NCBI GenBank assembly: GCA_026993975.1
Contig: JALWRR010000010.1
Coordinates: 1 to 32,031 of the forward strand
Source: Promethearchaeati archaeon
GTDB taxonomy: Archaea > Asgardarchaeota > Njordarchaeia > Njordarchaeales > Njordarchaeaceae
Reading direction: 5' to 3'
Length of the DNA: 32,031 nt
In this document: one piece after another, positions 8,532 to 30,391 of the stretch
How the letters are laid out: each line of letters starts with the position of its first letter
How positions within the stretch are numbered: position 1 is the stretch's first letter
The notes under the pieces: generated by a model
Database searches by the model: none
Seen by the model: the letters and a program-made list of their open reading frames with translations, nothing else
Told to the model about the DNA's origin: nothing
Translations under genes and position numbers: made by a program

Positions 8532-8692
8532 AATAACAGCCTCATGAAGTTTATTTACATTTATCTGAACTATAATAAATTGTAGTTTTACTTTAATATA
8601 TAAAATTTACGTTAACAAGACATAATTATGCGAGATTTAAAAAGTTCGTAAAATAAATAATCTCAAGGACTAGGTTGATTCTGGTAATCATT

Positions 8693-9394
8693 ATGCGTGA
8701 AGAGATTCTATCGCCTTTTTATATCATTTTAATTGGAACTATACTCACTGTAATAGTTGCACTAGAAAGTATTTACTACGTGCCTTGGTCTCCCTACTTC
8801 CTGATTTATGCCGCTCTAGCAATAATAATACCAATTTATGCTAAGTCATATCGATTTGGCTCTCTTAGATATGCATTCTCTAAAAAGAATTTAGTAAGCT
8901 TTATAATATTTCTCACATTGATCTCGATGGTTCTATTTGTAATTGAATACACCTATAACTATATTCTATCCTTATACGGATTCGGCAACAATCCTTATTA
9001 CAGCTTAAGTGAAGCCTTACATGATCTAGCTGAAAAAGCTGGCTTAAAATTCGGGATTAACGTAGAAACTGCTATTGGAATATATGCTATATACGTTATT
9101 GTTTGGGCTCCAATTGGGGAAGAATTATTTTATAGAGGATACATGTTTGGTGGGCTTCGAAACAGATATAATTTTGCTACTTCAGCTATATTATCATCAT
9201 TATTCTTCTGTATCAGACATATGACTCACTTCATCTTTCTCTTACCATTCTACCCACTATATGCAGCTATTTTCTGGGCATTTCACACATTCATTTTCGG
9301 AATACTAATATCATATGCTTACGAGAAAACTGATACCCTGTACATCCCGGTACTTATCCACTTCCTATATAACTTGATTGATGCACTTATCTAA
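8693..9394 (+). CDS. CPBP-family intramembrane metalloprotease
   Basis: This membrane protein of about 233 residues has roughly seven spans. All three motifs of the CPBP (CAAX protease/Rce1-like) family are visible: EELFYRG (EExxxR), FFCIRH (FxxxH form) and HFLYNL (HxxxN). The two Glu and two His form the metal or catalytic centre within the membrane. Bacterial relatives process peptides or confer self-immunity to bacteriocins, while the archaeal roles are mostly unknown. The frame can begin at TTG 8675 (with AAGGA upstream) or ATG 8693; I chose the ATG. The gene faces away from an ABC-2 exporter operon, a neighbour combination also seen in peptide export loci, but no precursor peptide gene is visible here. 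Confidence 0.85.
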   Translation: MREEILSPFYIILIGTILTVIVALESIYYVPWSPYFLIYAALAIIIPIYAKSYRFGSLRYAFSKKNLVSFIIFLTLISMVLFVIEYTYNYILSLYGFGNNPYYSLSEALHDLAEKAGLKFGINVETAIGIYAIYVIVWAPIGEELFYRGYMFGGLRNRYNFATSAILSSLFFCIRHMTHFIFLLPFYPLYAAIFWAFHTFIFGILISYAYEKTDTLYIPVLIHFLYNLIDALI

Positions 9395-9535: not shown

Positions 9536-10903
9536 TTGTTAATAAGGCATATATTATCACCCTTAATCACAAGACAGTACACTAAGTGGTACTACTTAAC
9601 TAGAAGTTGGAGAAAAAAAGATTGGAGAAACTGGGTGGCAGAAGAATTTGAGCGCGCTAAGAAATCAAGATGGACTCTGAAAAATTTCCCAGATTTAAAG
9701 GATGTGTCTTTTGAGGATCTACCAAGCTACCCAATTACTGAGAGGTATATTGAGGCTCCTTCAAACTACCCTACTTACTTAAGTTACTATAGCTCTGGAA
9801 CAATAGAAAGAAAGATAATTAGATTATCTAAGGATGATTTGAAGCGGATTTTTCTAGGGATTGGGAGAATAATTTGGACTGGTAAGAATGAAGCTAAGTT
9901 CAAGAACGGTCTATACATGGGTTTCTTTGGCCTTGGATCTGGAGCGATAGTTCATTACGCAACATACCTACTTTCTAACAAGGGAATCTATGTTAATGCT
10001 GGAGACTGGAGAAAGCATAAAAGGGAGATAATTAAGAATGCTCCATACGACTTATTGATACTGCCTTTGCCTTATTACGCTGACTTTATTCTGAATTTTG
10101 AGCATGATATTTATGATGGATTATCTTACTGGATTGTGAGTGGGGATTTATTTACGGAGTATCTTCGCTCGCTTCTAATTAATAAGAGCCAGAGAATGAA
10201 TAAAATTTTCTATGCTGTGGATTTCTATGGCGCGTCAGAAGTTTTTCTTCTAGGAACTGAGATACCTCCTTTCATAACTAAGGCTATTCAGTATGCTCCA
10301 GAAACAACAATAATCTTGCTGAAGAAGGAAGATGGTGAAATTGTTAACTTGTTTGATGCAGATCCTGGGGATCGAGGGGAAGTATTAGTTACTCCATTAT
10401 TTAATTACACTGTTCCGAATTATCCCCTCCACGATATAATCGAGGTAGAAGAGACTGAAAGCAAATTCGGGCTACCTACATTCAGGATCTTAGGACGTAA
10501 AGGTATCCGAGTCGATATAGAGCTTGAATCGCTCGGGCACATTAAGGGGTGGTACTCGATTTATGCACGTATAATGGGTATAATTATTGATGGAAGCGCT
10601 CTTAACGATTTAATTGGAAGAATATTTAATAGTGATCACATAACTTTTGTAGAACAAAGAAACGCAAAAATACATGTTAGAATCTATGTTAATAAGCGAA
10701 TAAATTACGATGATTTTATTAACGCTTTAAAAAACAATAATAGAACCAAGTATTTATATAATGATATAATAAATCACTTAGTATATATTGAAGTAATATA
10801 TAATCCCCAATTAATTAATGAAATCGAAACCAAATATTATGAAAAATTCGGCCCGCAAGCCACGATTCCAAGACTCATAATAGTGGAAAGTGAATCCTCA
10901 TGA
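9536..10903 (+). CDS. PaaK-like adenylate-forming enzyme, divergent
   Basis: This 455-residue protein has the layout of phenylacetate-CoA ligase-like (ANL superfamily) enzymes. It has a P-loop-like SSGTIERK at 86-93 (the usual form is SSGTTGKP), YGASE at 231-235, GDRGEVLVT at 278-286, Asp300 in PLHD and RILGRK at 317-322. These parts bind ATP and form the acyl-adenylate. The altered P-loop and the lack of an obvious catalytic Lys in the C-terminal domain leave the second half-reaction uncertain. It starts from TTG with a poorly placed AGGGGAT 16 bases upstream, so the start is doubtful. The stop overlaps the start of the membrane gene at 10900 by 4 bases (ATGA), so the two were co-translated. 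It could activate a carboxylic acid (aromatic or fatty) or have lost activity. Confidence 0.72.
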   Translation: MLIRHILSPLITRQYTKWYYLTRSWRKKDWRNWVAEEFERAKKSRWTLKNFPDLKDVSFEDLPSYPITERYIEAPSNYPTYLSYYSSGTIERKIIRLSKDDLKRIFLGIGRIIWTGKNEAKFKNGLYMGFFGLGSGAIVHYATYLLSNKGIYVNAGDWRKHKREIIKNAPYDLLILPLPYYADFILNFEHDIYDGLSYWIVSGDLFTEYLRSLLINKSQRMNKIFYAVDFYGASEVFLLGTEIPPFITKAIQYAPETTIILLKKEDGEIVNLFDADPGDRGEVLVTPLFNYTVPNYPLHDIIEVEETESKFGLPTFRILGRKGIRVDIELESLGHIKGWYSIYARIMGIIIDGSALNDLIGRIFNSDHITFVEQRNAKIHVRIYVNKRINYDDFINALKNNNRTKYLYNDIINHLVYIEVIYNPQLINEIETKYYEKFGPQATIPRLIIVESESS

Positions 10904-11307
10904 TACAATTAATTCTAGTGATAGCTGCAATCTTAATGATAATTCCACTAATACTTGGTTTCAGGTTAGTAAAAGATTCTTATGAAAGATTTAATTTATG
11001 GCCATTCCTATTGAATGAATTTATTGTTATTCTAGGTATACTATATATTGTTTTAACTATTGCGGGAAACCTAGCTTGGAACGCTTATATGGCTTTCATA
11101 TTTTTTAATGCATCATTAATAATAGCTAATGCCATAATAATACTCACCTATATTTATTTCCGCGCTCTAAGAACAGAAACCATTAATGCTTTAATCTCCC
11201 TCCTTTGCATACTCCTTTTTTCATTCAAGATAATTGCTCTCTATATCGATCCAATAAAAGTGTTTACCGGAAATGAACATATATATATCTCCGAAGCGCT
11301 CACCTAA
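10900..11307 (+). pseudogene. N-terminal part of a frameshifted 7-span/longin-like membrane protein
   Basis: This 135-residue reading has four hydrophobic spans (about residues 2-20, 36-58, 62-88 and 95-117). It runs out of frame just after a short extracellular-type loop ending NEH. The downstream piece at 11367 is open upstream in its own frame to 11277 and encodes a fifth span there (ILALISPIILIGLILYEA). The change of frame must fall within 11277-11307, where an (AT)5 run sits. Removing one AT restores a single reading of about 360 residues. It overlaps the PaaK-like gene by 4 bases. The cause could be a real mutation, a switchable repeat or a sequence error. Confidence 0.75.
11279..11288 (+). 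repeat. (AT)5 dinucleotide run at the frameshift site
   Basis: Five AT units occur exactly where the membrane gene changes frame. One unit fewer joins both halves into one open frame. Such runs are slip-prone in replication and also in sequencing. Confidence 0.6.
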
Positions 11308-11366
11308 CAATCCTAGCTTTAATCTCACCTATCATATTAATAGGATTAATTCTTTATGAAGCAACT

Positions 11367-11984
11367 ATGCTCTATCTTAATGCTAGATACGACTCTAGAA
11401 GAAGACCCTACGCTAGTAAATTAATGTTAACGTATATCTTAGTGATAGTTATAGTTCCCTTCTTTTATTTTGGATTCGAATCCTTGTATGTATCAGTCCT
11501 TATTCCCTATTTACAGGGATTTATCCTGAGTATCATAGCTTTATCAATTTCCATTTTATTTCACCGTGACCCAAGTAAACTCGTTTTAATTCCAATACAT
11601 ATTAACGGCTTCCTACTACACACGTATGGGGGCTTAGCAATACTAAGGAAAGCTTTCAGCGCTGATTTCGAGAGTGCTGTGGCGCTCTCCTCCGCACTAG
11701 TTGCATCTATAATTGGTTTAGAATCAGCTATCGTGGGGCGTGAGAAAAAGAATTTTTACATGGTTCATAAACTCATGAAGATTGTTATTATAATGTATTT
11801 TGGTAATTTCGTGGTAGGGACTATCGTGGCTAATAAGGATAATATTGTTCTTAGAGATATTCTTAGGAATATTGTTAGGGAATATGAGGATAGCGTAGGT
11901 TCTGTTGATGAGGGAATGATAACCAACAGGGAGATTGATAAGGCTATGGAGATTCTAGATAACTGGAAGGATTTCTTGTATTAA
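11367..11984 (+). pseudogene. C-terminal part of the frameshifted membrane protein, with longin-like domain
   Basis: An ATG-initiated reading of 205 residues contains two spans (about residues 21-45 and 49-67). These are followed by a soluble domain of about 110 residues whose pattern (FLLHTYGGLAILRKAF, an acidic/alanine-rich helix, a basic strand pair, then VVGTIVANKDNIVLRDILR) matches longin/roadblock-like alpha-beta folds. The same pattern occurs at the C-terminus of the protein at 19835-20905. The frame is open back to 11277, so this ATG is probably internal and the gene originally began at 10900. If translation restarted here, it would give a two-span protein with the cytosolic domain intact. 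Its stop overlaps the convergent LarA-like gene by 4 bases. Confidence 0.68.
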
Positions 11985-13246
11985 GCTGTTAGCATTGGAA
12001 CTGTTTCATAACTATAAGGCATGACTATAACTTTAACATCTTTATTCTCACTCAAGTAATCATCTATAGTTTTCTGAATATTCTTTATAGGATTCATCCG
12101 CAACAACTCTTTTACATCTCTAGCATTTAAACTAGTGTATAAGTATACTTCATAACTAGCTATTGTTTTTAGAACGTAGTAAGCCTTATGACCCCCAAGA
12201 ACAAATCGCTTCTTCAACTCATTCATGACCTCGATATGGTTACTGAATCTTCCTAGCCAATCTGCAAAAACACTGTGTCCGAAACCATCTGGGCATTCAG
12301 CTATAAATACTATTTTGCCTCCTTCCTTAACTATCTTCTCTGTGTTATATAATCCTTTATGAGCTTGATAGAAATTTATGTCAAAGGGATATCCTCCTGG
12401 AGAAGATATAGCTAGATCAGCTTTACTTTCGATAGGGACCATTATGAATGATTTAATATACTCTACTCCATCAAGAAATGTTCTGTCTGGATCACCAGCA
12501 AAAACTCTTAATATCTCTTTTCGAGAATTCAATACTACGGCTAGCGAGAAATCTATACCTACTAAGCCAGCTCCCTCTCTCAAATCAAGGAAAACTGGGT
12601 TATCACTTATATTGCATATATCTGCCTTCTCATCAAACATCATTGAGTGATTAAAATTGATTGTTTCTCGACCAGCGATTCCTGGAACAATGCTCTTGTA
12701 TACTCCTCCGAAACCCGCGTAGTAATGGGGTGTTATATCGGAGATAACTATCCTGAAATCCGCGTTAACGTAATACTTATTCACATAGACGTGATTCCCA
12801 AATGATGTATCTCCAAGATAAACGAGATCTTTTGAATCGCAATCATGATTAATCCACTTATACTTAGCTGCTAAATCACCCATTAAATAGAATGCTTCCT
12901 CATTACTTACACCCCTATGAGTCCCCGTAGCGATAATTATCACTATATTTTCCCTCCGTACACCGCCTAGCTCGAGTTCTTTGATGACATAGGGGAGAAT
13001 TAATTTTGATGGGAGAGGTCTAGTTACATCATCTATAACTATAGCAACCTTCATATCGCTATCGACAAGATTTCTTAATGGATCAGTGCCAGTAGGTTCT
13101 CTTAATTTCTCAGCAATCTCTTTACTAGGATCCAGTAAGGGTTCTGGAAACTTGGGTTTTAATACTGCTAAAATATTCTTATCTGGGACTTTGATTTCGA
13201 CATGAGATTTACCGTAGGGCATTAGGAATCTAGTCAATTTATACAC
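11981..13246 (-). CDS. larA: LarA-like nickel-pincer-nucleotide racemase/epimerase
   Basis: The 421-residue protein belongs to the LarA (DUF2088) family. The known LarA site residues fall at matching places: Arg76 in DDVTRPLP, His110 in GTHRGVS, His174 in ITPHYYAGF, Lys184 in GGVYKSIVPG and His200 in NFNHS. Lys184 tethers the nickel-pincer cofactor and His200 binds nickel. LarA racemises lactate, and archaeal homologues can act on other 2-hydroxyacids, so the substrate is open. Cofactor genes larB, larC and larE are not in this window and would have to be elsewhere. Translation starts at ATG 13246. It converges with the frameshifted membrane gene, with a 4-base overlap at the stops. Confidence 0.88.
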   Translation of the reverse strand: MYKLTRFLMPYGKSHVEIKVPDKNILAVLKPKFPEPLLDPSKEIAEKLREPTGTDPLRNLVDSDMKVAIVIDDVTRPLPSKLILPYVIKELELGGVRRENIVIIIATGTHRGVSNEEAFYLMGDLAAKYKWINHDCDSKDLVYLGDTSFGNHVYVNKYYVNADFRIVISDITPHYYAGFGGVYKSIVPGIAGRETINFNHSMMFDEKADICNISDNPVFLDLREGAGLVGIDFSLAVVLNSRKEILRVFAGDPDRTFLDGVEYIKSFIMVPIESKADLAISSPGGYPFDINFYQAHKGLYNTEKIVKEGGKIVFIAECPDGFGHSVFADWLGRFSNHIEVMNELKKRFVLGGHKAYYVLKTIASYEVYLYTSLNARDVKELLRMNPIKNIQKTIDDYLSENKDVKVIVMPYSYETVPMLTA

Positions 13247-13324
13247 CTAGAAGCTTAATACACTTACTTAATAAACTTCAACTCTACTTTATTAAATTAT
13301 TAATCCATATAAGCTAGAGAATTG

Positions 13325-14287
13325 ATGATACAGTTGATCGAGATAAGGGAAGCTACCCTAAGTGATGTTGAAGGAATCACAGGAGTCCATAAGAGCGATG
13401 TGAATAAGTGGTATAAAGTTATTGATTCGGATCTTGTCGAAGCTAGTTATGAGGAGTTATCTATCGAAGAGAGATGGCTTCATGGCGGTCCATGGATGAG
13501 TAAAGAGACTTGTTACATGCACCTAAAATCCTTCATGAATATGGGTGGCAAGGTTTTAGTAGCAGTGAATAAAGGTCAGATTATCGGTGAAATCGAATTC
13601 ATTAGCGATTCAGAACCATTCCCATATCTAGATAATATCGAGATCTATGTTTTAATGATTCACAACAAGTTTCGTGGAAGAGGCGTCGGTAGAAAACTCA
13701 TGGAATCCGTTGAGAATTATTGCAGTGAATTAAAAGCTAGCAGTATTCTTGTTTCTTCTGAGGAGAGAAGCATTAATTTCTATAAGAAGATAAATTACAG
13801 TTTATTCGAGGAGTACGAGACACTATCAATTAAGTTAGATAAGTTGCCTAGAATTAGTGAAGTGCATTTTGAGCCAATTAACAAGATAAGTACTAGGGAT
13901 ACAGAGAATAAATTATTGCTTATGGGGAGATTCCATAACACGAAAGCAACCATGTATAACTTATCTTTCTCTTATCCCTTCAGAAGAATGATAAATAAGT
14001 ACTTTTACTACAAGCTTTATGTTAATGATTCAGAGCACTTTTTGGTAATACGGAAGAGCAATATGATTAATAACTCACTTTACTGCTGGGTAGATACGAG
14101 CACCACTGAACTAAACACTATATCCAGAATATTAATTAACTCACTGCAAATAGCTAGGAGCTTAGGAATAGAAGAAATCTTAGTTGCATTGCGAAAGGAC
14201 TTGATAAAATTCATTAAGAAATTAAACCTTAAGTATAGTAACGTCGAGAAGATACCTTGGTTTAAGAAAGAGTGTAAAGGCGCTTGA
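13325..14287 (+). CDS. GNAT-family N-acetyltransferase (possibly tandem GNAT)
   Basis: The 320-residue protein has an N-terminal GNAT domain at about residues 5-175. The acetyl-CoA pyrophosphate loop is NKFRGRGVGRKLM, followed by ERSINFYKKINYSLFEEY (the FYxxxGF-like motif B). The second half (about 180-320) has ILINSLQIARSLGIEEILV and a following Lys-rich helix that resemble the end of another GNAT fold without the acetyl-CoA loop, so it may be a degenerate second copy. The acceptor is unknown. An in-frame TTG lies directly before the chosen ATG. The stop overlaps the next gene's TTG start by 4 bases, suggesting an operon with the creatininase-family and DUF72 genes. Confidence 0.8.
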   Translation: MIQLIEIREATLSDVEGITGVHKSDVNKWYKVIDSDLVEASYEELSIEERWLHGGPWMSKETCYMHLKSFMNMGGKVLVAVNKGQIIGEIEFISDSEPFPYLDNIEIYVLMIHNKFRGRGVGRKLMESVENYCSELKASSILVSSEERSINFYKKINYSLFEEYETLSIKLDKLPRISEVHFEPINKISTRDTENKLLLMGRFHNTKATMYNLSFSYPFRRMINKYFYYKLYVNDSEHFLVIRKSNMINNSLYCWVDTSTTELNTISRILINSLQIARSLGIEEILVALRKDLIKFIKKLNLKYSNVEKIPWFKKECKGA

Positions 14288-15012
14288 AAATGAAGTTAAA
14301 GATAATTGAGTTAACTTATAGAGATGTCGAGAAATTAATCTCTGATGGATATAGAAACCTCATTATTCCTGTAGGCACAATAGAAGCTCACGGCCCTCAC
14401 CTACCTCTAGGCACTGATGCTTTAATACCAGAGATAATCGCTGAGTCAATAGCTAGCGATATAAAAGCGCTAATAGCTCCCACCTTATATTATGGCTTAA
14501 CATCAAGCTTGCTTCGTTACACTGGAACATCAACATTATCTCAGGAAACACTAGTTAATCAATTAAAAGAAGTAATCTTATCTTACAAGCAGCATGGTTT
14601 CGAGAAATTCATCATTATGAATGGGCATGGAGGCAATATAGATGCTATTAGAAAAGCTTTGAACGATTTATGGCTTGAGCATAGGATTAAATCAATAGCT
14701 ATTCACTGGTGGATCTTCGCTAGGGAGGTAACGTTAAGGGTTTTTGGTGAACCTGGAGCTCACGCTGGTGTGGATGAGACAGCGTTCATACTTCATCGCT
14801 ATCCAGAATTAGTTAGGGAGGAATATTATACTGATAATGAATCCTTCCTAAAGGAGAATGGATTGGATATATGGCCTAGCCCTGGTTCAATAATTATATA
14901 TGAGAGAAATCGAGGTTTACCGAGGTTCGATAAAGATCTTGCTGATAAGTATGTTGGAGAGGTAATAAATCTAATAAGGAATAGATTGATTGAATTATTG
15001 AGCAAGATATGA
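14284..15012 (+). CDS. Creatininase-family amidohydrolase
   Basis: The 242-residue protein has the metal site of the creatininase family: Glu34 and His36 in GTIEAHGPH, Asp45 in PLGTD, and His115 in NGHGGN. A later GAHAGVDETA motif carries another Glu. These bind two divalent metals for amide or formamide hydrolysis. Characterised relatives include creatininase and the archaeal FAPy deformylase ArfB of flavin/F420 synthesis. The Glu of the creatininase NGHxEN motif is Gly here, as in ArfB-like members, so creatinine is an unlikely substrate. TTG 14284 or ATG 14290 could start it; AAAGG lies upstream of both. It sits between the GNAT and DUF72 genes with an overlap and a 5-base gap, so one transcript is likely. 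Confidence 0.85.
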   Translation: MKMKLKIIELTYRDVEKLISDGYRNLIIPVGTIEAHGPHLPLGTDALIPEIIAESIASDIKALIAPTLYYGLTSSLLRYTGTSTLSQETLVNQLKEVILSYKQHGFEKFIIMNGHGGNIDAIRKALNDLWLEHRIKSIAIHWWIFAREVTLRVFGEPGAHAGVDETAFILHRYPELVREEYYTDNESFLKENGLDIWPSPGSIIIYERNRGLPRFDKDLADKYVGEVINLIRNRLIELLSKI

Positions 15013-15017
15013 TTTAG

Positions 15018-15740
15018 TTGGGCGAGCAAGTATTGCGGTTTTACGTTGGTACAAGTGGCTGGAGATACTTCTGGAATAAAGGTAATAGCTTGGATTGGTA
15101 TGTCCAAAACACTAACTTCAACGCAGTCGAGTTAAATGCCTCATTCTATAGATTCCCATTCCCAAATCAAGTTAAGAGTTGGATGAAGAAAGGCAAGAGC
15201 CTAGTATGGAGCATTAAAGTGAACAGAGTCATTTCACATATGTATAAGTTAAGCGAAAAAGCTATAGGAGTCTTCGAGAAATTCAGGAAAATATTCAAAC
15301 CAATGGAGGATAAGGGATTAATTCGATTCTACTTGATACAACTACCAAGCATAGTGAGGTGCAGTGAGAGAACTCTAGCTAGAATCAGCAACTTTCTCGA
15401 CAATATTTCTATAAGAAATAAAATAGCGATCGAGTTCAGGCACGAAACTTGCTTTAATGATAAGGTTGAGAAAATTTTATCTAGGTTAGGGGTAACAATG
15501 GTATCCATTGATTCACCAGACACTGGTTTCAAGTTATTCAATACTAGTAACTCTATATATCTAAGACTGCATGGTCGGGAGATCTGGTATCACCATATCT
15601 ATAGTGATGAGGAGATAGATGGGATATTATCACAGATCCTAAAGACAGATGCTGATGAAGTATTTATCTATCTTAATAATAATCATGGAATGCTTCCAAC
15701 TGGTGAACTAATAATTAGTAAGCTAAAAGCTCTAAGATGA
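15018..15740 (+). CDS. DUF72 (YecE-like) TIM-barrel protein
   Basis: The 240-residue protein is a clear DUF72 member. It has the N-terminal GTSGWRYFW motif, then VELNASFYRFPF, IAIEFRHETCF and YLRLHGREIWYHH, all conserved strands of this beta/alpha barrel. A later LNNNHGMLPTGE matches the YxNNxxxG segment near the C-terminus. The family is widespread but its reaction is not established. It starts from TTG 15018, five bases after the creatininase-family stop. Phosphate or nucleic-acid related roles have been suggested for the family, but nothing here proves one. Confidence 0.88.
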   Translation: MGEQVLRFYVGTSGWRYFWNKGNSLDWYVQNTNFNAVELNASFYRFPFPNQVKSWMKKGKSLVWSIKVNRVISHMYKLSEKAIGVFEKFRKIFKPMEDKGLIRFYLIQLPSIVRCSERTLARISNFLDNISIRNKIAIEFRHETCFNDKVEKILSRLGVTMVSIDSPDTGFKLFNTSNSIYLRLHGREIWYHHIYSDEEIDGILSQILKTDADEVFIYLNNNHGMLPTGELIISKLKALR

Positions 15741-15870
15741 AATTATTTCAAACATTTTTAACACTGATCTTAATATGGAACTCACTTATTTGAAAAATAT
15801 TTTTAACTAATTTTTTAGTAATATCATTAAAATGCAGTAATTTCTAAATCTAAAATAAATGGTGATGAGT
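15741..15870. promoter_or_regulatory. AT-rich gap with terminator and promoter signals
   Basis: T-rich runs at 15773-15780, 15797-15804 and 15810-15816 can end the DUF72 transcript. The following AT-rich block can hold the promoter of the TIM-barrel gene. GGTGAT at 15861-15866 is its ribosome site. Confidence 0.35.
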
Positions 15871-16758
15871 ATGGGTTACGCCATTTTAGATTGGGGGACA
15901 TATAATGCTTTAGGATCTATAAAAAATGCTATCTTGTTAGGAATGAGACTAACAGAGATACCTCCAAGGATCTTCTCGAGAAGGAAAGTTGATGAGAAGT
16001 ATTTTAGGGAGTACAAGAAAGCGTGCAAAGGCATATTCACAACAATTACTGCGCATGCACCATACTACTCCTTAACCTCTAGGGATCCATCAACGTTAAA
16101 GGATACTGAGAGAGCGATGAAATCGGCAATTAAGCTTGCGAACATAGCTGGAGCAGAGATATTTAATATGCATATTGGTTCAGCGCTTGATGATAGGGAT
16201 AAAGCAATTGAACAGGCGTCAGATATAATTAAGAAACTACTCAAAGAGAGCAAGGATATAATGATATCGCTTGAAACAACTTATTCCCCAAAATTCCTGG
16301 GCTCGCTTGACGACATAAAAGCTATTATAGAATCAGTTAATAGTGATCGAGTCATTATTTCCCTTCAGCTCGATAATGACTTTATAAGGGAGCTAGAGAT
16401 CTATAAGAATGCAAATTTTAATTTAGCGAACTCAAAAGCCACTGTTGATTTCTGGATGAATTTGTTTAAGAGAGCTATAAAACTAACTAGAAACTATTTC
16501 TCAATAAGGTTTTCTCAAGTAATAGGGATGTATCTCAGAAAGAGATTCTTCGTTAAAAAGAGAGTTCCTCTTGGTCGTGGTTATCCAGATATTAATCCAT
16601 TAGCTAAGGCTATCGCTCAATTTATTTACAGAGAGATCTATGAAAAAGAACTACCAATGGAAGTACACATAATTTATACTGGGCCAACAGAGACAAAGTT
16701 TAGGGATACAGTGATGTTAACGAGCTCTATAGTGAGTGAAGTCGCTCAATTACTCTAA
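15871..16758 (+). CDS. Endonuclease IV-like / xylose isomerase-like TIM barrel protein
   Basis: The 295-residue protein resembles endonuclease IV (Nfo), the AP-site endonuclease. Early metal ligands match: His62 in AHAPYYS, His101 in NMHIGS, Glu135 in SLETT, and a final Glu274 in TGPTE. Between them, the Nfo signatures DxxH and D-x-H are not evident (LDND and a Lys/Arg-rich GMYLRKRFFVKKR segment take their places). It may therefore bind fewer metals or act on something other than abasic DNA. The ATG at 15871 follows GGTGAT by 4 bases and is preferred over ATG 15859. The next gene is an SF2 helicase, which supports a nucleic-acid role (inference). Confidence 0.7.
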   Translation: MGYAILDWGTYNALGSIKNAILLGMRLTEIPPRIFSRRKVDEKYFREYKKACKGIFTTITAHAPYYSLTSRDPSTLKDTERAMKSAIKLANIAGAEIFNMHIGSALDDRDKAIEQASDIIKKLLKESKDIMISLETTYSPKFLGSLDDIKAIIESVNSDRVIISLQLDNDFIRELEIYKNANFNLANSKATVDFWMNLFKRAIKLTRNYFSIRFSQVIGMYLRKRFFVKKRVPLGRGYPDINPLAKAIAQFIYREIYEKELPMEVHIIYTGPTETKFRDTVMLTSSIVSEVAQLL

Positions 16759-16853
16759 TTTTTTATTTAATAAAACACCTATTTATTGCTTTCAGGGATT
16801 ATCAAAGAAAGTGTGTTAATTTCTCTATAAGACATGCTTAATGGTTATTAAGA

Positions 16854-18599
16854 ATGAGTAATTACTCTGAATTGAAACTGAGACCTAGGAAGTATCAGAT
16901 AAAAGCTAGTGAAATAGCTCTAAGTAACAAAAAGACAGTAATAGTTATGCCTACAGGAACAGGCAAAACTCTTATAGGATTGATGTGGGCTAAATCTCTT
17001 CTAGATAAAAAGAAAGCTAGAAAAATCCTTGTGCTTGAACCCACAAGAATTCTAGTTGAGCAGGTATCAGCTTTTTATAAGAAAGTTTCTGGCCTAGACA
17101 CGGGAGCTATCCATAGTATGATGCCTGAGGAATCAAAACGAAGAGGCTGGTTATCAAGAATAGTTGTTACTACTCCTGAAGAGATCCTATTCAATATGGA
17201 TAAGCTCGATTCTTTCGATGCCATCGTCATCGATGAATGCCATCACTCTGTGGGAGAAGATGCTTATAAGAAAGTTTTAGAAGCAAGCACTGCTGAGTGG
17301 CGATTAGGTTTATCAGCTCATATCCCTAAGAGGCATAGAAAAAGCATTGAGAAACTGATTGGGAGGATCTATGAGTGGAGTACTAGTGATCCAGATATAT
17401 CGAGATATATTCCCGATTGGATTGGCGAAGTTTATGAATGCCCTCTAGATAATGCTTCTTTCAAAGTATATAAGCTCCTAGAGAAGGAGTGGCTTAATTC
17501 TGATCGAAGAGAGAAAATACTGTATGGTTTAGCTCTAAGATTCTTGTCACGGGACGGTGCTTTAGCTCTAAAAGAGAGCCTAAGCAAGAAAACTAAACTA
17601 GCGTCCCTCTTAAGTAAGTATAAGCAAGATATATTGAGACTACCAGATCTACATAAGCTCGATAAATTAAATAAAGCAATAGATCAACATGATTTCGAGA
17701 AAGCAATAATATTTGTGGATAGAGTGATCGTAGCAAGGAAACTAAAAGAGTTATTTCAGGGATACGATACAGTAGTTATAACTGGTAAGAGGAGAAACGG
17801 GGATAGAGTTATTAAGCAGGCATTAGAGCTTGCTAGGAGGAAAGAAACTAGGATAGTTATATCAACTTCAGCCGGTGAGGAAGGGGTTGATTTACCTAGT
17901 GCAGATCTGCTAGTTCTCTGGAGTAATGTTGTTAGTCCATTAAGATTTATACAGCGGCATGGGAGAATATTAAGGAAAACCAAGCCAGTTAAATTCGTTG
18001 TTTACCTAGTTACACCTAACACGATTGATATGAACGCATTCCTGGATTCAGTTTATCTAGCTAAAAAAGTGGGAGTAGATATAAATATCTCTAATGAATC
18101 ACTGAGAGACTACTTAATGCGATCCCCTAGAGCAATCTTGTTAAGCGCTCTGGAAAACCCACTCCCAAGAGAGTTCATCCAGGAAGTGACTGGACTTGGA
18201 GCAAGTGAAGTTCAGAGAGCATTAAGACTTTTCTTTGAGCAGGGAGAATTATTCTACGTATATACACCGCTTGGAAGAACAATCGCTAAACCAGAGCACA
18301 TCCCGATTCTCTATGAGAAATACCCAGAATACTTTAATCCCGAGAACATTCAGGGGAAAGTAGTGATCATTCTAGATTCAAGAAAAAAAGTTTTTCAAGG
18401 CGATTACAAATCAATAATAAACACGCTTACTAAGTTTCTAGGTAGATTCAATGGATTAAGAATCACTTTAAGAGAGAACATTGATTCAATTGAGTATGTT
18501 TATTCTCTCTCATATAACTTCAGGATAAAGGAGAGAGAAGTGTTAGAAATAGTTCTAAAAAATGCATTCACTAAAACCGTATTCACAGAGTATGGCTAA
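16854..18599 (+). CDS. SF2 DNA helicase (Hef/FANCM-like or XPB-like core)
   Basis: The 581-residue helicase has RKYQ at 12-15 (Q-motif position), Walker A PTGTGKT at 33-39, PTRILVEQ (Ia), TTPEE (Ib), DECHH at 127-131 (II), LGLSAH at 151-156 (III) and QRHGRILR near 366 (VI). The order and the insertion after motif III resemble the helicase half of Hef and related fork-remodelling enzymes. No XPF-type nuclease domain follows; instead there is a C-terminal part of about 170 residues with a winged-helix-like LPREFIQEVTGLGASEVQRAL region. Motif III ends in His rather than the usual Thr. It sits downstream of the endonuclease-IV-like gene and its stop overlaps the convergent membrane gene by 4 bases. 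A role in DNA repair or replication restart is likely. Confidence 0.82.
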   Translation: MSNYSELKLRPRKYQIKASEIALSNKKTVIVMPTGTGKTLIGLMWAKSLLDKKKARKILVLEPTRILVEQVSAFYKKVSGLDTGAIHSMMPEESKRRGWLSRIVVTTPEEILFNMDKLDSFDAIVIDECHHSVGEDAYKKVLEASTAEWRLGLSAHIPKRHRKSIEKLIGRIYEWSTSDPDISRYIPDWIGEVYECPLDNASFKVYKLLEKEWLNSDRREKILYGLALRFLSRDGALALKESLSKKTKLASLLSKYKQDILRLPDLHKLDKLNKAIDQHDFEKAIIFVDRVIVARKLKELFQGYDTVVITGKRRNGDRVIKQALELARRKETRIVISTSAGEEGVDLPSADLLVLWSNVVSPLRFIQRHGRILRKTKPVKFVVYLVTPNTIDMNAFLDSVYLAKKVGVDINISNESLRDYLMRSPRAILLSALENPLPREFIQEVTGLGASEVQRALRLFFEQGELFYVYTPLGRTIAKPEHIPILYEKYPEYFNPENIQGKVVIILDSRKKVFQGDYKSIINTLTKFLGRFNGLRITLRENIDSIEYVYSLSYNFRIKEREVLEIVLKNAFTKTVFTEYG

Positions 18600-19630
18600 G
18601 AAACTGCCCGTAAACCCCTCCTTCTTACCGCTCTATACACAATTGTAATAAGATTATAGGCAATAATAATGAACCCAAGAATAATCGTTATAAAGAACAT
18701 GCCAGCGATAAATACATATGCTATATTACTTATTAGAGAGAAAACTATCACTAGAATGAAAACCAGTATGTAAAATCTCAGTAAATCACTAAACTTGAAT
18801 AATTCCCCTAATTCTCTTTCCTCCCCTTTAAATGAATCCTTATCGAGATAAATCCCCATAAACAGAATCAAGTAAATTAGAATCGTTAGCATAATAGTGA
18901 TCGGCCCCGGAATCTCACCTGGTCTAACCACGAAAAAGAATAATATGTAGAGAAACGCTAGATAAGCAATCATGATAACTAGACCAATTTTACCCACAAT
19001 TAAATTATCTAAAGAGATTGTCTCTCTATCCATTCTCTTAATAATGAGATAGATCAAGGTGATGAGAGCTAGAGATCCAAAAAATCCAGAAGCACTAATA
19101 AAGAGGTTCCCTCCCGAATTAAGAGCTAGAGCTGAACCAGCGAAAAGAATTAGGAAAACATAGAAAAATAAGGAGACCTTGTTCTTAATGATCAATAAAT
19201 CAATATTACATGAATCCTCGTTACCTAAGTGCATTGAAAGTATCTTTATGGTGATTAACGGAGCGATAAAAGACATGAATGGATGCCAAATAAAACTAAC
19301 TATACTCATCTCTGCTACAGCAAAGCCCAGAGGTGTACCAAGTATCGGTTTCCCAGAATCACTAAACCCAGCCCAATCAACCTTCGTCATCCATGTCTCA
19401 TAGAGACCGAAAATAACACCGAATAAGTAGAGGGATCTCGGGGAGGTCCTGTTGACTCTCACTGCAATATTAAATAATACGAGCAAATGAAACATGTATA
19501 AGGGGAGTAGAAAGATGTATCCGAATATATCAGAGAACCATAGAATCGATGAACCAGATAAAACTTCTGCGTAGAATACAGAAAGTAATCCAGCCAGTAG
19601 TAATAACAGAAGTTTCGGGATCAAACGCAT
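18596..19630 (-). CDS. Polytopic membrane protein of unknown function
   Basis: This is a protein of about 344 residues with roughly ten hydrophobic spans and little soluble sequence. An ordered segment (FGVIFGLYETWMTKVDW, then HPFMSFIAPL) in the first half has conserved-looking Trp, Asp, Glu and His that could form a site near the membrane face. The C-terminus is basic (RRRGLR), so it is probably cytosolic. ATG 19630 is chosen because GGTGA lies 6 bases upstream; TTG 19642 is less likely. It is head to head with the 7-span/longin-like gene across about 200 bases. I do not recognise a family with known function. Confidence 0.65.
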   Translation of the reverse strand: MRLIPKLLLLLLAGLLSVFYAEVLSGSSILWFSDIFGYIFLLPLYMFHLLVLFNIAVRVNRTSPRSLYLFGVIFGLYETWMTKVDWAGFSDSGKPILGTPLGFAVAEMSIVSFIWHPFMSFIAPLITIKILSMHLGNEDSCNIDLLIIKNKVSLFFYVFLILFAGSALALNSGGNLFISASGFFGSLALITLIYLIIKRMDRETISLDNLIVGKIGLVIMIAYLAFLYILFFFVVRPGEIPGPITIMLTILIYLILFMGIYLDKDSFKGEERELGELFKFSDLLRFYILVFILVIVFSLISNIAYVFIAGMFFITIILGFIIIAYNLITIVYRAVRRRGLRAVS

Positions 19631-19834
19631 AAGTTTCACCAACTAATCTTAAAAAAAGTAAGTTTTTCTGCGAATATTTCTATATCGTATTAATTAGAAG
19701 TATATATTCTTACTCTTATTTCTTTATTTAAAAAAGTTGAATATACCATATATACGACTTAATATATTTCAAGAAAATTTTAAATTAGTGAGCAGCTATT
19801 AATTAATCTACTTATGAAAACGTGATGAGTAATA
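19631..19834. promoter_or_regulatory. Divergent promoter region
   Basis: About 200 AT-rich bases separate two membrane genes transcribed away from each other. TTAATATATTT at 19759-19769 and the TTTTAAATTAG block at 19778-19788 are TATA-like toward the plus strand. CGTGATGA at 19821-19828 is the ribosome site of the plus-strand gene. No further gene is visible. Confidence 0.35.
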
Positions 19835-20905
19835 ATGATTATTCAATACATCCTACTATTAATCATGCCTGAGTTATTATTTAGCTTCATCATAAGCCTT
19901 AAAAGCTTTATGAAGCATGGTTACTTATCTCTACTATACGATTCCTTAACATCTCTGTTTCTGGAACTAGCGTTGATTTCAGAAGTATTAAGTTACTATG
20001 TTAACATGAGAATTTTCATTCTTAGTAGATACGTCGTTCTAAACGCTTTCCTAAGAACAACATTCATCGTTCTTGGATTCATATCCTGGATCTTCTCAAT
20101 AAACTACTTAACAAGCAACAAGATATCGAGACTAATACATATTGTAACATTTATAGGTGGCGGCGCGGTAATAGCTTCATTATTCGAGACTGATCTATTC
20201 TCCTCACTAGTCCTTGCTGTCGTGGAGATAGCTGGATTAGCGTTAATAGGAATTGTTATTGCGAGACACTTAATATTCAGCATGAGACAGTTAAGGGCGA
20301 GAAGAAACATGAAGTATCACTGGATATATTTCCTAGGAACACTCACGTTCCTATCAGGATTATCAATCTTGATTATAAATGGTTTATTAGTGTACGTCTC
20401 AATACCTTTAGTGGATTTCCTAGAGGTAATCGCGATAGCATTATTGTTCACCGGTTACTTAGGAGTCATGATGATCTCTGGATTATACCCACACATGCTA
20501 TTAACAACATATATAAGACCATACAGCTTGTTCCTAGTAACAACTGGAGGAGAAACATTCTTCAAGTACTCTTTTAGAGCTGGAAGAGAAAGAGTTGATC
20601 CAGAGTTGGTTGGTTCAGCAATGACTGGAATTTCAATGATGACAAGTGAGATCATTGGAAAAAACATACCGATGAGACTAATTGAGCATGAAGCATTCTA
20701 CATAATAATGGCCCATGGAGAAAAAATATTGGGTTTCCTCTTCACGGACAAGATGAGCAAAATACTTAGCGAGAGCTTAGATAGATTAATAAAAGTAATA
20801 GAATCAAAATATATGGATTATATAGGAGACATCGTGTTAATGGATGAGAAGATCCAGAAAGAAATGGAAAAAGACACAGAGGAAGCATTCTATTACTTAA
20901 TCTAA
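19835..20905 (+). CDS. Seven-span membrane protein with C-terminal longin-like domain
   Basis: The 356-residue protein has seven hydrophobic spans within the first 228 residues (about 2-21, 30-56, 72-93, 101-119, 122-149, 163-190 and 194-222). A soluble C-terminal domain of about 110 residues follows. It opens with a strand FLVTTGGETFFKYSF, then a long helix, a pair of strands (AFYIIMAHGEKILGFLFTDK) and an amphipathic helix ILSESLDRLIKVIESKY, which is the pattern of longin/roadblock-like regulatory folds. With an odd number of spans, this domain would be cytosolic if the N-terminus is outside. Such folds usually bind small GTPases or act as dimer platforms, so a sensor or docking receptor is possible. 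It is a relative of the frameshifted gene at 10900-11984. No GTPase gene is nearby. Confidence 0.7.
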   Translation: MIIQYILLLIMPELLFSFIISLKSFMKHGYLSLLYDSLTSLFLELALISEVLSYYVNMRIFILSRYVVLNAFLRTTFIVLGFISWIFSINYLTSNKISRLIHIVTFIGGGAVIASLFETDLFSSLVLAVVEIAGLALIGIVIARHLIFSMRQLRARRNMKYHWIYFLGTLTFLSGLSILIINGLLVYVSIPLVDFLEVIAIALLFTGYLGVMMISGLYPHMLLTTYIRPYSLFLVTTGGETFFKYSFRAGRERVDPELVGSAMTGISMMTSEIIGKNIPMRLIEHEAFYIIMAHGEKILGFLFTDKMSKILSESLDRLIKVIESKYMDYIGDIVLMDEKIQKEMEKDTEEAFYYLI

Positions 20906-23224: not shown

Positions 23225-23256
23225 CTTAACAGTGGCCTCTAAAAAAGGTGCAAGTG

Positions 23257-25980
23257 ATGACGGAGGATACTGATTTTATTAAAGATATTAAGGTTGAGAT
23301 CAAGACATATATGGGGAAAGCAATCGCTTATGATCTATCAAAGCTAAGAGATATGGGCATCATAGATATAGAGAAGTTACCATACTCCCTGAGAATCATG
23401 CTCGAGAACATAATACGGAATGCGCATAAGATAGAGAACTTTTCCGAAATGTTAAAGAAATTTACTGAGTGGCCTAGTAGTGGCGGTAAGGGAGAGATAT
23501 CTTTTTTCCCATCAAGAATAATCCTACAGGATTTCACGGGAGTCCCACTTGTAGTTGATTTAGCGGCTATGAGAGATGCTGCGAAAGATCTTGGAGCTGA
23601 TCCCAGGATAGTTAATCCGGTGATTCCATCTCACTTAATTATTGATCATTCTGTTCAAGTAGATTATTATGGTGTCTCAGATGCATTAATCAGAAACATG
23701 CAATTAGAATTCAGGAGAAATCGGGAACGCTATAGGTTTCTTAAATGGGCTCAAAACGAATTCAGTAATTTTAGGGTTTTTCCTCCAGGATCAGGAATAA
23801 TCCATCAAATAAATCTAGAATACCTAGCGAGAGTCATTGAATTAAGGAACGAGAACGGAGTTCTACACGCTTATCCCGACACAGTACTTGGAACAGATTC
23901 ACATACAACAACCATAAATGGAATAGGTGTGGTTGGATGGGGCGTGGGTGGAATAGAAGCTGAGGGTGTTATGTTAGGTCTCCCATACGAGTTACCGTTC
24001 CCAGAAGTAATAGGTGTTAAACTGGTTGGAGAGTTACCGCCAGGAACAACAGCCACTGACCTAGTCCTATACATAACGGAGAGATTAAGGAAGAAAGGTG
24101 TAGTCGGTAAATTCGTGGAGTATTTCGGTCCAAGCATTAAAAATCTACCTGTACCTAATAGAGCCACGATCTCTAATATGTCACCTGAATATGGATCAAC
24201 AATTGGTTACTTTCCAATAGATAAAGCTACTATAGATTACCTCACTTTAACCGGAAGGGATCCAGGGCACGTGCAGTTTGTTAGGGATTACGTGGAGAGA
24301 TTTAAACTTATTTATAATGAGGAGATACAGCCAGTTTACTCAGATATAGTTGAGATAGATCTAAGTGATGTTGAACCAGCTGTCTCTGGCCCAGCTCATC
24401 CAGAGGATAGGATTCCATTAAAAGAGCTAAAAAAGAAGATTCTCCAGCTCATTGAAGAGCATTTAAAGAGAACTGGGAAAAAAGATTACTCTGGTTACAT
24501 ACTAGCGGGAAAAGATGAGAGGGATGGAGTAATACTGGATATAAATGGAGAGAAAACGATTTTCAATCATGGATCAGTAATAATAGCGGCGATAGCTAGC
24601 TGTACAAACACACCAAACCCTCTAGTAGTTATAGCTGCTGGACTACTAGCTAAGAAAGCTGTTGAGAGAGGCCTACGCACGAAACCACATGTTAAAACAA
24701 GCTTAACCCCTGGATCAAGAGTTGTTGTTAAGTATCTAAATAAGCTAGGCCTGCTCCCGTACCTAGAGGCCTTGAGATTCCATGTAGCTGGGTTTGGATG
24801 CGCTTCATGCATAGGTAATAGCGGACCTCTCAACAAGACTATTGAGAAAGCGATTAGAGATCTCGATATTTACTCTGTCTCGGTCATAAGTGCTAATAGG
24901 AACTTTAGCGGTAGGATTCATCCACTCTCAAGAGGAAACTTCCTAGCTTCACCACCACTCGTTGTTGCTTTTGCGCTAGCTGGTAGATTAGATATTGATC
25001 CTATAAATGAGCCATTAACAATGGATCCTAATGGTGAACCAGTCTATCTAAGGGATATATGGCCATCAATGGAGGAGATATATAAAGCGTTTAATGAGGC
25101 TCTAGATCCAGAACTATATAGAGAGACATATAGGAATATTGAGGAGGGATCAGAGGATTGGAAGAAGCTGGAAGCTCCAAGCGGAATAGTTTACCACTGG
25201 GAGAAAGAATCAACATACATAAGGAAGCCACCATACTTCGAAGGATTCAAGTTAACTCCAGAGAAGCCAAAAGACATAAAGAAAGCTAGAGTTCTAGTAT
25301 TGCTGGGTGATAGAGTATCAACAGATCACATCTCTCCTGCTGGAGCGATACCTCCGGACAGCCCTGCGGGAAAATACTTGCTTGAACACGGTGTATCAAT
25401 AGAAGACTTTAACACGTATGGATCTAGAAGAGGTAATCATGAAGTAATGATGAGGGGAACATTCGCTAACATAAAACTAAAGAATTATCTTGTTCCAGAT
25501 AGAGAGGGAGGATGGACAAAATATATTCCAACGGGAGAAATAATGAGTATCTATGAAGCAGCAATGAGATACAAGAAAGAGAACATCCCAGTTATAGTTA
25601 TAGCTGGAAAGCAGTATGGCGTAGGTAGCTCAAGAGACTGGGCGGCCAAAGGACCAGCACTACTTGGCGTTAGAGCAGTTATAGCTGAGAGCTTTGAGAG
25701 AATCCATAGAAGTAATCTAATCGGTATGGGAGTACTGCCGCTTGAATTTAAGGAGGGTGAAAACTGGAGATCACTAGGTTTAACTGGCGAGGAGGAATTC
25801 GATATAATTGGTATAAGTGAGGGATTGCATCCTAGAAAAGAGCTGAAAGTCATAGCTAGGAAAGGAGATAAAACAATAGAGTTCAATGTCATAGCTAGCT
25901 TAAATACATGGGTTGAAGTGGAGTTCTATGAGCATGGTGGGATACTACCATACACATTAAGAAAATTAATTAAAGAATAA
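23257..25980 (+). CDS. acnA: Aconitate hydratase (AcnA type)
   Basis: The 907-residue aconitase belongs to the AcnA/IRP1 branch. It has GTDSHTTTINGIGVVGWGVGG in the first domain and the three cluster cysteines in ASCTNTP and GFGCASCIGNSGPL. NRNFSGRIHP and the swivelling C-terminal domain follow, with GDRVSTDHISPAG, YGSRRGNHEVMMRGTF and KQYGVGSSRDWAAKGP. It isomerises citrate and isocitrate through aconitate at a [4Fe-4S] centre in the citric acid cycle. AAAGGTG at 23244-23250 sits 6 bases before ATG 23257, which is preferred to GTG 23248. The gene stands alone, with T-rich DNA after the stop. It complements the KorDABC oxidoreductase at 2983-5821. Confidence 0.96.
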   Translation: MTEDTDFIKDIKVEIKTYMGKAIAYDLSKLRDMGIIDIEKLPYSLRIMLENIIRNAHKIENFSEMLKKFTEWPSSGGKGEISFFPSRIILQDFTGVPLVVDLAAMRDAAKDLGADPRIVNPVIPSHLIIDHSVQVDYYGVSDALIRNMQLEFRRNRERYRFLKWAQNEFSNFRVFPPGSGIIHQINLEYLARVIELRNENGVLHAYPDTVLGTDSHTTTINGIGVVGWGVGGIEAEGVMLGLPYELPFPEVIGVKLVGELPPGTTATDLVLYITERLRKKGVVGKFVEYFGPSIKNLPVPNRATISNMSPEYGSTIGYFPIDKATIDYLTLTGRDPGHVQFVRDYVERFKLIYNEEIQPVYSDIVEIDLSDVEPAVSGPAHPEDRIPLKELKKKILQLIEEHLKRTGKKDYSGYILAGKDERDGVILDINGEKTIFNHGSVIIAAIASCTNTPNPLVVIAAGLLAKKAVERGLRTKPHVKTSLTPGSRVVVKYLNKLGLLPYLEALRFHVAGFGCASCIGNSGPLNKTIEKAIRDLDIYSVSVISANRNFSGRIHPLSRGNFLASPPLVVAFALAGRLDIDPINEPLTMDPNGEPVYLRDIWPSMEEIYKAFNEALDPELYRETYRNIEEGSEDWKKLEAPSGIVYHWEKESTYIRKPPYFEGFKLTPEKPKDIKKARVLVLLGDRVSTDHISPAGAIPPDSPAGKYLLEHGVSIEDFNTYGSRRGNHEVMMRGTFANIKLKNYLVPDREGGWTKYIPTGEIMSIYEAAMRYKKENIPVIVIAGKQYGVGSSRDWAAKGPALLGVRAVIAESFERIHRSNLIGMGVLPLEFKEGENWRSLGLTGEEEFDIIGISEGLHPRKELKVIARKGDKTIEFNVIASLNTWVEVEFYEHGGILPYTLRKLIKE

Positions 25981-29684: not shown

Positions 29685-30056
29685 ATGTCGTATATTGAGT
29701 GGATTGAGAGGGCTAGATTCTTCCTGAAAGAAGCTGAGAGATATCTGAAAGAGAATATTTATTGGGCTTCATGCTTTAACTCTCATCAAGCAGCTGAATT
29801 CTATCTCAAGGGAATTTTATTTAAGATCACGAATTCTTATCCATTCACCCACGATTTAATAATTCTTCTAGACGCGTTAGAGAAACTAGGTATAGATATT
29901 TCTGATAATATACGTTTAAGTGCAGATTATTTAACTCCTCATTATACTTGAGCGAGATATCCTGGAACTAAAGCAATAATATATGATAAAAGAAGAGCTG
30001 AGAAATGTTTAAACCACGCAAAAATTATAGCAAAATTTGTTGAGGAATTACTATGA
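29685..30056 (+). pseudogene. HEPN-domain protein interrupted by an in-frame TGA
   Basis: The frame from ATG 29685 encodes a HEPN helical domain (WIERARFFLKEAERYL, then NSHQAAEFYLKGIL and THDLIILLDALEKLG). It is stopped by TGA at 29949-29951, codon 89. Reading past it in the same frame continues without a break for 34 more codons with family-typical sequence (ARYPGTKAIIYDKRRAEKCL). It ends at TGA 30054-30056, overlapping the MNT gene's ATG by 4 bases (ATGA). That coupling shows the original gene was 123 codons long. The truncated product lacks the last helix and the conserved RYP segment. HEPN/MNT pairs act as toxin-antitoxin RNases with a nucleotidylylating partner. A sequence error remains possible. 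Confidence 0.78.
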
Positions 30057-30391
30057 AACCAGAACTAATTCGCGAAGCAGAAAAGTTTCTCAGGGAACTA
30101 GTAGATACAATCATAGATATTTACTCGGGTAACGTGACGATTATCTTGTTTGGTGGTAGGGCTCGAGGAACTAGTTCTGATTCAGGAGATTTCGATATAT
30201 TAGTCATCTTAAGGAAGGTTCATGACCCAATAGATGAAGCTATAAAAATTAGAACAAGATTGCACAAAAAAAGGTTTCCTCTAGATATCGTGGTTATCGA
30301 AACTAAAGACTTAGAGAAACCTATCATTAAGAAAATGTTAGAGCATCACGTAGTACTATTTGATGGCTTGAAAATACAGAAATTAATTTAG
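30053..30391 (+). CDS. MNT-type minimal nucleotidyltransferase (HEPN partner)
   Basis: The 112-residue protein has the nucleotidyltransferase core FGGRARGTSSDSGDFDILV, with metal-binding Asp46 and Asp48 spaced as in the GSx10DxD motif. A third acidic residue lies in FPLDIVVIE. The Ser of the GS pair, which contacts the nucleotide phosphates, is Gly35 here. In HEPN/MNT modules this enzyme modifies (for example AMPylates) and silences the HEPN RNase. Its start overlaps the reconstructed HEPN end by 4 bases. With the HEPN partner truncated, it may be a leftover antitoxin. The fold is clear; its activity is doubtful. Confidence 0.82.
   Translation: MKPELIREAEKFLRELVDTIIDIYSGNVTIILFGGRARGTSSDSGDFDILVILRKVHDPIDEAIKIRTRLHKKRFPLDIVVIETKDLEKPIIKKMLEHHVVLFDGLKIQKLI

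Follow-up and report, generated by a model that had tools for sequence, protein, structure and literature searches.

Results

Judged from their sequences, two genes of the window, which we call A and B, belong to a large and apparently unnamed Asgard family of proteins in which seven membrane spans are followed by a C-terminal longin-like domain (7TM-longin proteins). By the window we mean the whole stretch of 32,031 nucleotides that was analysed; both genes lie on its forward strand. Gene B (19835-20905) is an intact open reading frame of 356 amino acids with homologues in other genomes, namely Njordarchaeota (61% identity, in another MAG) and Thorarchaeota-type genomes. Its seven-span region, predicted to run with the N-terminus outside and the C-terminus inside, occupies 19835-20480, and the longin-like domain, with the order b1-b2-a1-b3-b4-b5-a2 in the alignment, occupies 20507-20824 (profile E 1.4e-31); a C-terminal tail, which sequence and a crude prediction make the last helix, fills 20825-20905.

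Gene A as a whole spans 10900-11984 and is split by a frameshift. The N-terminal part, with the first spans (10900-11307), ends at an early stop (11305-11307) that follows a run of TA dinucleotides (11279-11288), where the frame shifts relative to intact homologues; the remaining spans and the C-terminal domain are read in a different frame (11277-11984). The longin-like domain of A lies at 11592-11912 (E 5e-26 against a profile that includes A as a row, E 5e-7 against a B-only profile). Intact homologues of 361-362 amino acids and 39-43% identity occur in the same genome and genus, and since they are of equal length we take A to be a genuine coding region carrying an indel, or else a recent pseudogene. 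The source genome is itself a fragmented MAG of 216 contigs, 87% complete.

Relation of A to B

The first-pass annotation had described A and B as related proteins sharing their length, seven hydrophobic spans and a similar C-terminal domain, and all of this stands on the evidence of the reading frames, hydropathy, profile searches and hhalign. A direct pairwise search detects no similarity between A and B, each finding its own relatives only. Against a profile built from the C-termini of the B family alone, the C-terminus of A scores 26.5 bits (E 5.1e-7), where 2000 shuffled versions of it reach 10.3 bits at best, and hhalign connects the two C-terminal domains with a probability of 97.5 (E 6.4e-12) and the two whole families with a probability of 97.9 over 316 columns (E 5.6e-13). 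The membrane regions compared directly by hhalign give no match (probability 2.4), and each of them finds its match in a mixed group of further 7TM-longin proteins from Asgard genomes (E 4.5e-6 and 2.6e-7); in 35 control comparisons of membrane regions with unrelated membrane proteins, all were at or near 3% or below.

The annotation had further suggested a lineage-specific family from the presence of two nearby copies, and here the result is different. In a tree from which A itself is omitted, as it is split, the relatives of A (94/90) and of B (100/99) form separate clades, the latter beside Thor-type proteins (93/78), so that A and B are old paralogues within a phylum-wide family rather than a recent local pair; a recent tandem duplication is ruled out by the tree.

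The C-terminal domain

The domain of about 105 residues at the C-terminus is common to A, B and many proteins of other genomes, and the earlier proposal that it is longin- or roadblock-like is supported by profile similarity against a reversed control. In Pfam and the PDB the domain comes closest to longins, among them TRAPP subunits, Mon1-type proteins and coatomer delta, and to roadblocks. For 34 diverse copies of the domain the leading Pfam families by member count were Fuz_longin_1 (4 members), Intu_longin_1 (3) and Sybindin (2), all weak matches, and the PDB matches were mostly longin and roadblock chains. A second alignment of 41 proteins, of which 38 were new and all came from one other genome (G115), returned Sybindin (4), Fuz_longin_1 (3), TRAPPC1 and Trs23; over the two alignments the best E of the leading Pfam families was 5e-4. 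Reversed sequences gave no longin or roadblock match, and no Pfam family was matched by two or more of them; in the PDB they reached E 0.004 on adenylate kinase. The single longin and roadblock hits being sub-threshold, the case is carried by their consistency and by the controls.

Comparison with Asgard roadblocks by hhalign gave a colinear alignment with a probability of 74 (E 2.7e-5), against 2% for the reversed set; with the second alignment alone the match was weak (probability 10). The alignment begins past the first helix of the roadblock, which fits a longin topology. Robl_LC7 (PF03259) matches 4 of 49 relatives, with a best E of 1.1e-5, and neither A nor B. The order of strands and helices given above comes from the alignment and a crude prediction, the C-terminal helix being predicted only. 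A GG pair had been remarked on after the first strand: it does sit in the turn between strands 1 and 2, but only its second glycine is a feature of the family.

Seven spans and their topology

Averaged over families, hydropathy shows exactly seven spans in both the A and the B family and in three further groups. Lysine and arginine are enriched in loops 1, 3 and 5 and on the C-terminal side in four of these five groups, the pattern being less clear in the fifth (f24). Such a distribution of positive residues points to an N-terminus outside and a C-terminus inside, which would place the longin-like domain in the cytosol. The topology, read from hydropathy and the distribution of lysine and arginine only, is thus predicted alike for A, B and the Thor-type families, and is receptor-like, as had been suggested. 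Within the spans we identified no ligand site and no conserved signalling residue. Neither A nor B matches Pfam, and NCBIfam holds no family for B or for the C-terminal part of A.

Spread and expansion of the family

The B-family profile finds a match at E <= 1e-6 in 217 of 227 Asgard genomes, many of these matches being the domain alone within larger proteins; the architecture of multiple spans with a C-terminal longin was confirmed in 12 family-level groups among the loci read. With Njordarchaeota M288 and a Thorarchaeota MAG as the closest named relatives, the setting is Asgard and not Thermoproteota, where the annotation would have searched. At least eight copies are present in the source genome (C10 twice, C5, C204, C127, C125, C152, C117). 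The Asgard genome G115 holds 134 longin-like domains at E <= 1e-5; 40 of those read belong to 7TM-longin proteins, of which 32 have seven spans exactly, with three more besides, and there are tandem arrays of six genes (L222, G115:C5:1283500-1293500) and of three (L223). The copy number here, together with more than 40 copies and tandem arrays in G115, is what we would expect of a receptor-like gene family. We found no description of the 7TM-longin architecture, its expansion or its gene pairing in the open-access literature, and a mention elsewhere, for instance in Asgard orthologue tables, is possible.

The domain also occurs in other settings. Proteins at four loci (L024, L025, L014, L016) have a large, partly beta-rich N-terminal region (MG2-like in L024), then spans, then the longin-like domain, and multi-span proteins of about 620-760 amino acids with the same C-terminal domain are found in several Asgard families (L013, L020, L021, L028, L029). 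At L022 and L031 there are neighbouring pairs of related longin-like genes of about 280-300 amino acids, perhaps heterodimer partners, and at L151 a longin gene of 171 amino acids lies immediately upstream of a 7TM-longin gene.

The putative ligase gene beside A

Gene A is preceded on the same strand by a gene of 455 amino acids (9536-10903) that overlaps its start by 4 bases. Conserved S/TSGT..K, YxxxE and PNYxLxDxIEV motifs, together with PDB matches of its family that were all ANL enzymes (6 of 6; PaaK-like, AjiA1 and GH3; sub-threshold, E 0.04-0.33), point to an adenylate-forming (ANL, PaaK/GH3-like) ligase as its product, although the protein is not recognised by Pfam at cut-off. In motif pattern and PDB matches it resembles the PaaK-like, AjiA1 and GH3 acyl-acid amido synthetase ligases; it differs from known ANL ligases in that the family adjoins genes of longin proteins in this genus. 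At G000:C204, G001:C132 (two copies) and G001:C72 ANL homologues directly adjoin A-type genes; at G000:C127 and G004:C80 they neighbour 7TM-longin genes in divergent orientation, and at G003:C48 and G001:C12 they lie next to longin-like reading frames or fragments. More distant ANL members in G007 and G009 have no such neighbour. B, unlike A, has no adjoining ANL gene. Just upstream of the ligase gene, at 8675-9394, the window also encodes a CPBP/Rce1-like intramembrane protease (Pfam PF02517), of which there was no homologue at the related loci searched.

GTPases and kinases

We count at least 13 Roc/Ras-like GTPases in the source genome, and on contigs C127, C128 and C141 roadblock genes lie close to Ras-like GTPase genes. 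In another Asgard genome, G043, a protein of 339 amino acids (L057:811-1827, reverse strand) has the longin-like domain fused to a Ras/Rab-like GTPase, and longin-GTPase fusions have been published for Loki (PMC4917890, PMC10933270). Since this type of domain is fused to a GTPase at that locus and longin-GTPase fusions are on record, we consider a link of the 7TM-longin proteins to GTPases plausible on sequence grounds. The neighbourhoods, which the first-pass annotation had proposed to examine for GTPases, lend little to it: among the 40 wider loci that were first read, just 3 had GTPase genes nearby, and GTPase operons are not the rule. This is in keeping with the Loki isolate MK-D1, whose small GTPase genes, according to PMC10933270, are generally not in operons with their regulators.

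HisKA kinases were found neither in the source genome nor in eight other Njord-order MAGs, the exception in the order being G005, which is 12% contaminated; HisKA histidine kinases do occur elsewhere in the Asgard phylum. Kinship of the spans with HisKA_7TM (PF16927) was rejected, as this model matches one relative at E 0.33 in each of two Pfam searches and nothing in the source genome.

Discussion

In human cells the longin fold handles small GTPases, and some longins serve SNAREs, adaptors or dimerisation instead. How might such a domain act at the end of a seven-span protein? We propose, with confidence evenly balanced, that A and B act as sensors in the membrane and regulate Ras-like GTPases through a longin platform in the cytosol. 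The computed basis for this is the homology, the seven spans and their predicted topology, the profile similarity of the domain to longins, the spread and expansion of the family and the gene pairing; from it we infer the sensing of a ligand, the dimerisation, the coupling to GTPases and what the ligase contributes. The seven helices, bundled and with the N-terminus outside, would sense a ligand or the state of the membrane, and the seventh helix would continue straight into the longin domain on the cytosolic face. There the domain would probably pair with a second copy of itself, or else with a soluble longin or roadblock protein, and so form a platform on which at least one Ras-like small GTPase is recruited or regulated, the domain serving as GEF, GAP or scaffold. 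The protein would then work like a GPCR or a 7TM sensor kinase, except that the receptor itself contains the module that handles GTPases, and the ANL ligase beside A-type genes of this genus may make, conjugate or remove the ligand. In favour of sensors, at those even chances, we count the GTPases of the source genome and the roadblock genes close to some of them, the longin-GTPase fusion at L057, the failure to find HisKA kinases, the expansion in copy number and the pairing with ANL genes. Against them weigh the sub-threshold level of each longin or roadblock hit, the weak roadblock alignment of the G115 set, the scarcity of GTPase genes among the neighbours, the other uses of some longins and the lack of a recognised ligand site or conserved signalling residue in the spans.

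The comparison with known systems is instructive. The best, though weak, matches of the domain are TRAPP longins (TRAPPC1/Bet5, TRAPPC4/Trs23) and Mon1-type Rab GEFs, which have the order of strands and helices that we tentatively read here; those longins are subunits of soluble complexes, whereas in our case a seven-span protein ends in the domain on the cytosolic side. Roadblock/LC7 proteins (MglB-type) have GTPase partners and a remote profile similarity, but are soluble and begin with a helix that seems to have no counterpart here. The longins and roadblock proteins of Asgard archaea and the longin-GTPase fusions described in PMC10933270 and PMC4917890 are of the same domain class and phylum, but unlike the 7TM-longin proteins they are mentioned in the passages concerned without membrane spans. 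G-protein-coupled receptors are alike in having seven spans, predicted here as N-out/C-in, a receptor-like expansion and a coupling to G proteins, conjectural in our case; here, by contrast, the GTPase module is fused to the receptor and no heterotrimeric G proteins are implied. Pfam lists no GPCR family for A, B or their relatives, and we rejected a kinship suggested by PDB hits to CCR5, which are sub-threshold, no better than noise and aligned out of register. The 7TM sensor histidine kinases (HisKA_7TM) likewise have a seven-span input followed directly by a small cytosolic alpha/beta domain, but A and B have neither a kinase domain nor a match to that model.

Could the seven spans do something other than sense? 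They might form a transporter, lipid scramblase or assembly factor, with the longin as a regulatory, dimerisation or trafficking adaptor and no GTPase signalling, a reading that we consider unlikely but that deserves attention. Longins also serve SNAREs and coats, as PMC10933270 states, and other multi-span Asgard proteins of 740-760 amino acids end in the same domain; yet no transporter family in Pfam or NCBIfam matches the spans of A or B, and a receptor is suggested by the 7TM form of about 360 amino acids, by the expansion and by the tandem arrays. Among the relatives, MFS_1 matches 1 of 49, a member without assigned identity. Because A-type genes and the ANL gene sit so tightly together, A-type proteins could also be the ligase's partners in the membrane, taking part in biosynthesis or in the modification of lipids, and not receptors. 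We find this improbable, as B-type and most Asgard members have the same architecture with no ANL neighbour at the loci read.

The domain, too, could be read differently. If it were a PAS/GAF-like sensor or a plain dimerisation domain, within the fold superfamily that contains longins, the protein would resemble the input half of a 7TM-PAS kinase, and the junction of span and domain is presumably similar to that in such kinases. Longins have indeed been grouped in a PAS/GAF superfamily, according to PMC4917890. It is nevertheless longin and roadblock models that the database searches match, PAS and GAF models are missing from the Pfam families listed, and HisKA_7TM comes up only at the level given above, so that we think this reading quite unlikely. 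That the whole pattern is a chance resemblance or an assembly artefact, as the frameshift in A and the fragmented MAG might suggest, is scarcely credible: the orthologue in another MAG, the profile E-values and the shuffled and reversed controls argue against it, it is already refuted for B, and intact homologues speak against it for A.

Returning to the proposal of sensors acting on GTPases, we suggest more generally, and at rather less than even confidence, that a large Asgard class of 7TM receptors, each with its own longin platform, passes signals from outside directly to Ras-like GTPases, without heterotrimeric G proteins and sometimes, in Njordarchaeota, with a ligand-making enzyme. Asgard archaea are the archaeal group closest to eukaryotes, and their genomes hold many small GTPases whose control is poorly known; a 7TM-longin family with a cytosolic end like the longins of Rab GEFs would be a concrete candidate for the upstream input to them. 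If this is true, membrane receptors wired to Ras-like GTPases predate eukaryotes, and the genes named here can be put to the test.

Two further features of the window may be recorded. An aconitase gene (78% identity) at 23248-25980 has a counterpart near the B orthologue in the other Njordarchaeota MAG (L067), so that the neighbourhood of B is partly conserved. By its sequence, a gene pair at 29685-30391 may be of the HEPN-MNT toxin-antitoxin type.
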